Shown: positions 9,865 to 10,226 of the stretch, piece after piece
Layout of the letters: every line of letters begins with the position of its first letter
How positions within the stretch are numbered: position 1 is the first letter of the stretch
Source: Prevotellaceae bacterium
GTDB lineage: Bacteria > Bacteroidota > Bacteroidia > Bacteroidales > UBA932
Length of the DNA stretch: 10,226 bases
NCBI GenBank assembly: GCA_031288885.1
Contig: JAITQP010000249.1
Span: forward strand, 1 to 10,226
Reading direction: 5' to 3'
The notes under the pieces: generated by a model
Told to the model about the DNA's origin: nothing
Seen by the model: the letters and a program-made list of their open reading frames with translations, nothing else
The model's database searches: none
Translations under genes and position numbers: made by a program

Positions 9865-10120
9865 GATTTTTGTGTTTTTAATATTAATAGTAAAAAATCT
9901 AAATTGAATTTATTTTATGCTAATAGGTATTTTTATGGCGGCACATACGCCGCCGGTATTGGTGAGGGGTTGCCCCTATGGGGAGGCGGTGCGTGGGGGA
10001 GCGCGGCATAGCCGGCTGTCAGGCATAGCTGCAGCACAAAATAGGCGCCTGTGCGCTGAGCGAGGCAGCGCAGGGCTATACTTGTAGCTGTGAAATAAAT
10101 TTTGTATCTTAGCGCGCTTG
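9865..10120. other. Gene-free intergenic stretch with small hairpins
   Basis: No credible gene is seen on either strand. The first 70 bases are AT-rich and form the leader of the minus-strand operon. A perfect 6-bp hairpin follows (9937-9942 with 9949-9954). Two mutually exclusive 4-5 bp hairpins share CCCC at 9973-9976: one pairs it with 9965-9969, the other with 9980-9983. A 7-bp hairpin lies at 10052-10072. The segment 9937-10080 is G+C rich compared with the flanks. No tRNA or known riboswitch fold was recognised. Confidence 0.6.
10081..10112 (+). promoter_or_regulatory. Near-consensus Bacteroidota promoter facing the GT tract
   Basis: CTTG at 10081-10084 and TATCTTAG at 10105-10112 are separated by exactly 20 bases, matching the Bacteroidota consensus except for one base in the -7 element (A for T). 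The expected start of transcription, about 8-10 bases downstream, falls at the first units of the GT repeat. Confidence 0.55.
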
Positions 10121-10204
10121 GTGTGTGTGTGTGTGTGTGTGTGTGTGTGTGTGTGTGTGTGTGTGTGTGTGTGTGTGTGTGTGTGTGTGTGTGTGTGTGT
10201 GTGT
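10121..10204. repeat. (GT)42 dinucleotide microsatellite
   Basis: Eighty-four bases of perfect alternating GT, 42 units with no interruption. It lies immediately after the promoter-like site and 4 bases before the ATG-containing sequence TTGCTATGCGC; that ATG (10209) is open to the window end. Every reading frame through the tract is free of stops and offers GTG start codons. Such a tract is prone to slipped-strand change and to Z-DNA. On the minus strand it would read as Thr-His repeats, which is not taken as a gene. Confidence 0.95.
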
Positions 10205-10226
10205 TGCTATGCGCATTTGTCACGAA

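Follow-up and report, generated by a model that had tools for sequence, protein, structure and literature searches.

The locus

The window analysed here, that is, the whole stretch of 10,226 nucleotides, is a complete contig (G000:C225, positions 1-10,226) of the assembly G000, which comprises 2.49 Mb in 320 contigs at a completeness of 79%. A (GT)42 tract without any interruption is located at 10121-10204 (Tandem Repeats Finder: period 2, 42.0 copies, 100% matches), and the contig stops 22 bases beyond it. The following features surround the tract:

10121..10204, minus strand: presumed hypermutable tract, (CA)42 on the minus and (GT)42 on the plus strand (Tandem Repeats Finder; orientation taken from the tract family)
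9933..10226, minus strand: visible part of a leader ORF, FVTNAHSN-(TH)n-PSALRYK..., open at the contig end, with its stop 188 nt past the tract
10109..10111, minus strand: TAA stop in one of the three frames, 12 nt past the tract; the other frames stop at +145 and +188
10039..10083, minus strand: hairpin past the tract, computed at -15.8 kcal/mol, with a poor U run, non-canonical as a terminator
8236..9864, minus strand: main gene, 256 bp from the tract, encoding a 542-aa protein without a Pfam family
7388..8233, minus strand: OmpA-like porin family gene (PF16961, Pfam), next on the strand after the main gene
10082..10112, plus strand: promoter-like TTGT-N19-TATCTTAG, 8 nt from the tract, a possible antisense promoter (motif scan)

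The perfect 84-bp GT run described in the initial annotation is thus present, and the CTTG motif (10081-10084) does precede TATCTTAG (10105-10112) by 20 bases. The gap between TATCTTAG and the run, given as about nine bases, measures eight, and the run does not end four bases before TTGCTATG, as had been claimed, since it directly adjoins TGCTATG.

The 542-aa protein is coiled-coil-like by sequence and has no Pfam family at the threshold used. A search in which 8000 candidates were scored yielded one relative, a 'Prevotellaceae bacterium' hypothetical protein with 59% identity, and no match was found in the six loci of named metagenome-assembled genomes (MAGs; L078-L083; L-numbers denote individual loci). 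Among the 11 genomes of the genus (G000-G010), relatives are found in three: the window's own genome, G005 (61%) and, weakly, G001. In G005, the gene is preceded by a CA tract of 41 bp and, further ahead, by interrupted CA, and the frames there stop at +25, +194 and +264; its counterpart in G001 follows a 96-bp CA tract and then, as judged by eye, a canonical terminator.

Other repeats also occur in the window. A perfect (AAATC)5 at 7363-7387, the second short tandem repeat there, is located between convergent genes ending at 7312 and 7388 (Tandem Repeats Finder). At 1985-2055, behind a DUF5597/GH42-like gene, there is a long inverted repeat (ACGCTAACGGAGAGGCACGC...GCGTGCCTCTCCGTTAGCGT type). 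Within another long inverted repeat, CATTCCGTTAGGAATGTATCGCTCGGTAGAAAA is found at 4729-4890; it is present again upstream of the L158 tract and is probably a dispersed intergenic repeat.

Distribution of the tracts

The (GT)42 tract is neither a product of chance nor singular, since the window's own assembly contains 14 + 27 starts of tracts that measure about 20 bp or more. In the genus, 321 such starts were counted in 10 of the 11 genomes (G000 41, G001 52, G002 16, G003 25, G004 0, G005 63, G006 31, G007 6, G008 29, G009 10, G010 48). These counts are the sum of G-starting and T-starting tracts, whereby interrupted tracts are counted more than once (contigs C71 and C151 enter the own-genome count of 41 twice) and tracts beginning at a contig end are missed. 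Many tracts are located at contig ends, which is usual for repeats in assemblies, and all tract lengths given here are assembly lengths rather than read lengths. Outside of the genus, three of 29 relatives carry one to four G-starting tracts each. Order-wide, a longer G-starting tract is found in 11 of 393 genomes, of which the ten besides G000 carry one to three each; long GT/CA tracts are rare elsewhere in the order. The relatives' stretches that were inspected are 60 hand-picked ones round 115 listed places, and by eye, L163 and one tract of L245 may lie in chimeric or foreign contigs.

In a comparison of HisF, from which records of the window itself or of very close kin may be missing, the closest named relatives are four 'Prevotellaceae bacterium' MAGs with 91-98% identity. 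Judged by their sample codes, we take these four to be termite-gut MAGs, and the genus probably consists of termite-gut bacteria. The one genome without a CA tract, G004 (1.5 Mb), possesses an element-bearing leader (see below) that lacks CA ahead of its hairpin (L265), possibly the state preceding the tract.

A repeat census of 545 kb of stretches, which had been chosen for AC, revealed 114 AC tracts of at least 20 bp, one AG tract, no AT or CG tract and two A runs, and general microsatellite growth was rejected on these numbers. MutS scored above the cut-off in 11 of the 11 genomes and MutL in nine of the 11, which argues against a genus-wide loss of mismatch repair as the cause. MutL was not found above the cut-off in the own assembly (79% complete) or in G005 (72% complete), and these two genomes may have a repair defect.

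Orientation and target genes

Strand and frame were analysed for 103 merged tracts from nine genomes, using a hexamer gene caller trained on own-genome stretches. When the tract is written with GT on top, a gene to its left was called in 28 own-genome rows, in which two interrupted tracts make up two rows each where unmerged; all 28 of these genes are on the minus strand and directed away from the tract. On the CA side, the next gene lies on the same strand in 79 of the 80 tracts with a called neighbour (79 rows, 77 genes), 100 to 2,307 bp from the tract; the single opposite case is a 73-aa call, and the 23 of 103 tracts without a called neighbour are mostly found at contig ends. The tract is therefore to be read as (CA)n upstream of a gene, and the tract of the window belongs with the visible minus-strand gene at 9864-8236. 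The initial annotation had assigned it to an unseen plus-strand gene further right. The orientation of the family opposes this assignment, and, as the contig ends 22 bases past the tract, any gene beyond 10226 lies outside the visible sequence. None of the tracts falls inside a called gene, and the leader frames described below have no coding signature in the gene caller, which counts against a leader switch.

The genes behind the tracts are diverse. One cluster makes up 28 of the 79 target rows and is read as TonB-dependent SusC-like receptors; its one member among the 37 main genes scanned with Pfam (L162) carries Plug and CarboxypepD_reg domains. Furthermore, the scan, which included the window's gene, revealed regulators (two-component, AraC, LacI, ECF sigma), enzymes (sulfatase, FGE-sulfatase, rhamnogalacturonan lyase), proteins with List_Bact, Big_2, fn3, YDG or LRR_5 domains, outer-membrane barrels, DUFs and others, and 11 of the 37 genes, including the window's, matched no family at the chosen threshold. 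At L182 and L171, the gene behind the CA tract encodes an ECF sigma factor, so that a switch at these loci could affect many further genes. L189 is a histidine ammonia-lyase gene (hutH), named by sequence and not by Pfam.

A comparison of tract lengths among relatives, which had been proposed in the initial annotation, showed that the assembled lengths differ between species. The main genes of L219 and L242 are 97.3% identical, with tracts of 79 and 67 bp and strongly diverged leaders. The hutH tract measures 106 bp in G000, 94 bp in G001, 118 bp in G002 and 106 bp in G009; there is none in G005, and in G006 it is out of view. Outside of the genus, no CA tract of at least 12 bp was found upstream of hutH in the three closest relatives (L292-L294; there are ten weaker matches besides).

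The leader frame

All three frames of (CA)n encode Thr-His, and a tract within a short leader ORF would thus be read as (Thr-His)n. Among the 84 tracts with 250 bp of upstream sequence, a frame running from an ATG into the tract is open for at least 60 nt in 79 cases (shuffled mean 21.8, maximum 31 in 200 sets); on the GT strand, which served as control, this applies to 21 of 89. The motif TTG-N18..21-TAnnTTTG, which we take to be the Bacteroidetes-type promoter motif, occurs exactly on the gene strand in 22 of the 84 cases (2.1 expected), and the TAnnTTTG box alone in 56 of 84 (14.2 expected); when one mismatch is permitted, the excess is smaller (38 compared with 22.3 expected). On the gene strand, the promoter motif is followed by the ATG and then by the frame running into the tract. 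Across the family, the repeats thus lie in an open leader frame that has a start and a promoter motif of its own. In the window, the frame is open up to the contig end and enters the tract as FVTNAHSN-(TH)n; the leader of contig C71 ends nearly identically before its tract (HDFVTNAHIN-(TH)n).

Three other functions of such an arrangement were considered and rejected. Phase variation through promoter spacing does not fit the gene-strand TAnnTTTG boxes, which mostly lie 80-240 nt before the tract, with 6 of 68 within 40 nt. The leader peptide is not conserved, as orthologous leaders diverge, though small families exist. A fusion of leader and main gene as the purpose of the shift was dismissed, because an open frame continues into the main gene at few loci (e.g., L158, L168, L182, L194, L210, L211, L231), without forming a rule.

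Similar leader peptides precede different main genes in two families (L171/L180/L181 and L159/L170/L189/L221), which hints that whole leader modules have been copied between loci. In L171, L176, L181 and L230, low-complexity AATTAGGAATTGAGAATT-like and GCGCAAAGCGTG-like stretches are found immediately before the tract.

Hairpins and reading frames behind the tract

A sequence similar to GCTCA(A/G)CGAGTTACGTA recurs after the tracts. With at most two mismatches, this element was detected in 10 of the 11 genomes of the genus (not in G007) and in two of 13 genomes outside of it, with one match each; a reversed control pattern gave eight matches in 24 genomes. Its frames read AQRVT followed by a stop if A or G is next, LSELR and SASYV. 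Three loci of the genus (L259, L281 and, in the tract-free G004, L265) combine the element, or a form of it, with at most a short CA run.

A strict scan revealed a hairpin with a U run behind the tract at 37 of 89 loci (1.8 expected from 20 shuffled sets) and at one of 84 on the control side; a looser scan found terminator-like hairpins at 70 of 94 loci. The strict scan was negative at 52 of the 89 loci, for some because of detection limits and for some truly, and the pattern scan found no canonical terminator at the window's locus; both count against a leader switch. In a family of 12 related hairpins, of which ten were chosen by a sequence motif and two were added by hand, pairing is found in 95.8% of the cells and two-sided changes are in excess (16 compared with 5.5 in shuffles, 0 of 500), whereas the number of further pair types is not raised (10 compared with 11.4). 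Compensatory differences were also seen by eye in the hutH hairpin of G000, G001 and G002.

The three frames behind a tract were classified as stopping before the hairpin (S), reading past it (R) or ending inside it (H). At 70 loci, which are partly related and thus not all independent, the classes were RRS (33), RSS (26), HRS (5), SSS (3), HSS, RRR and HRR (one each). At the 53 hairpins of -10 kcal/mol or better, 77 frames read through, compared with 37.3 expected and a maximum of 48 in 200 shuffles of the spacer. According to a published 28-nt rule, 46 of these 53 loci have both an off frame, which stops well before the hairpin, and an on frame, which ends in or behind it; the remaining seven, six without an early-enough stop and one with only early stops, count against a switch. 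Where the leader could be seen (n=54), the present frame is S in 30, R in 21 and H in three cases; by the 28-nt rule (n=40), 22 are S, 16 are R and two are near, and a random phase predicts 18.0 S. Four orthologue groups could be compared for their present state: it is uniform in three (L162/L240/L254 S, L166/L241 S, L190/L204 R) and discordant in the fourth, whose main genes are 80.6% identical (L227 R, L255 S). The leader frame of the window is the +188 frame, the last of the three, and would therefore now read past its hairpin.

Promoter-like sites on the GT strand

With up to one mismatch, TTG-N18..21-TAnnTTTG is also enriched on the GT strand within 110 nt of the tract (19 of 92 loci including the window, 5.6 expected), and exact matches occur at 6 of 92 loci (0.4 expected). 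Of 15 TAnnTTTG boxes matched exactly, eight end no more than 20 nt from the tract, and 14 of the 19 sites belong to loci without a strong hairpin. This enrichment counts against a leader switch as the explanation. If active, the element in the window would start transcription at the GT run and yield an RNA complementary to the leader. The proposal of the initial annotation that the tract lies at the transcription start of an unseen plus-strand gene is not supported, but the promoter-like element itself may be real, and the proposal may partly hold as antisense transcription.

A proposed frame-gated attenuator and its alternatives

We propose, with a probability of roughly two in three, that slippage of the tract sets the frame of the leader and hence determines whether the ribosome prevents termination before the main gene. 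The gene-strand promoter would drive a leader mRNA consisting of an ATG, roughly 20-90 codons of a poorly conserved peptide and (CA)n read as (Thr-His)n. At many loci, one of the frames would then end at a stop, and an intrinsic terminator would separate the leader from the main gene. Since the CA repeat contains neither starts nor stops and encodes the same dipeptide in every frame, slippage would alter only the position of the leader stop: the loss or gain of CA units would shift the frame behind the tract. In off frames, the leader would stop ahead of the hairpin, the terminator would form and the gene would be mostly off; in on frames, the ribosome would enter or cross the hairpin, which then could not form, and the gene would be on. 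The hairpins, the frame classes, the promoter motif, the leader ORF, the orientation and the interspecies differences in tract length can be read from the DNA; we infer that the leader is translated, that termination takes place at the hairpin and that the state switches within a population. The terminator step is uncertain at the window's own locus, and this copy is the weak point of the proposal. The initial annotation had also envisaged a slippage-prone tract that switches expression, and analogy and anatomy support this part of it, the genes concerned often being surface genes.

A rather unlikely alternative is that CA repeats grow neutrally in leader ORFs that tolerate any frame, so that leader and terminator regulate the gene and the length of the tract is irrelevant. 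The fast evolution of the leader peptides, the random look of the present frames and the own assembly without a MutL match would suit this scenario; however, it is at odds with the presence of MutS in all and MutL in nine genomes, with the dominance of AC tracts over all other types in the census, with the single orientation of the tracts and with the excess of read-through frames. Classical amino-acid attenuation, in which a shortage of charged tRNA makes the ribosome stall at Thr and His codons and termination is thereby avoided, would explain why a Thr/His-rich leader precedes a terminator and why one target is by sequence a histidine ammonia-lyase. This mechanism is improbable here, because the other targets examined are receptors, adhesin-like proteins, regulators, enzymes or genes without a known role, the length of the run varies widely, and the frame pattern is unnecessary for it.

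Slightly less probable still is a modified form of the initial annotation, according to which a GT-strand promoter starts a transcript within the GT run, whose length modulates an RNA complementary to the leader. The enriched and often tract-proximal sites, most of them at loci without a strong hairpin, speak for this form, but 73 of the 92 loci lack such a site, several carriers are related SusC-like loci, and leader ORF, hairpin and frames are left unexplained. Rho prefers C-rich, G-poor RNA, and the unstructured, C-rich and G-free CA RNA might be a loading site that becomes exposed when the leader is untranslated. This very improbable reading draws on the composition of the RNA and on the missing intrinsic terminators at some loci; it predicts neither the intrinsic hairpins nor the read-through frames. 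That frame-gated attenuation extends to dozens of independent attenuators per genome throughout the genus (up to 63 tract starts), with a random mix of receptors, adhesins and regulators in each cell and maybe antisense RNA from the tract at some loci, we consider an even bet.

Relation to known systems and significance

In the open-access literature, attenuation by repeats in a leader was found only for the pilus loci of Streptococcus gallolyticus, and no paper was found on such leader switching in this bacterial group. Surface loci of Bacteroidales phase-vary by DNA inversion, which likewise makes surface genes vary at random within this order of bacteria; the process there is recombination, whereas slippage would be responsible here. 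In the pyrBI-type attenuation of Escherichia coli, the leader ORF reaches through the terminator, a trailing ribosome suppresses termination, and the coupling responds to nucleotides; the leader through the terminator is alike, whereas the length of the repeat would set the frame in the system proposed here.

The repeat-in-leader switch of S. gallolyticus pil1 has been shown by genetics, and pil3 is reported to behave likewise (PMC3894217). Both share with our loci short tandem repeats in a leader-peptide ORF and surface genes as targets, and with part of our loci a premature stem-loop terminator, putative here, behind that ORF; which frame is read there determines whether translation of the leader ends far ahead of the hairpin or only inside or beyond it. 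However, pil1 and pil3 are two pilus loci of a Gram-positive bacterium with five-base GCAGA repeats (PMC3894217), whereas a two-base CA repeat is found here at tens of loci per genome in Bacteroidales, in front of receptor and regulator genes among others; the stop gate or the hairpin is different or missing at many loci. In E. coli, measurements have shown that terminators are repressed when they closely follow a translated gene (PMC4824070). The phase variation of Haemophilus and Neisseria by simple sequence repeats similarly relies on slippage tracts in or before surface genes; however, the tract is usually located in the promoter or the gene itself and not, as here, in a separate leader ORF. 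As the mechanism is already known from S. gallolyticus and E. coli, the novelty would lie in the scale, the type of repeat and the lineage.

If true, frame-gated attenuation would be a genome-wide regulatory style of this genus, adding a stochastic level of control to genes for nutrient receptors and to surface genes. The predicted state of each locus would be readable from the tract length modulo 3, and the tracts would provide many natural replicates for the question of how near a ribosome must come to cancel a terminator.
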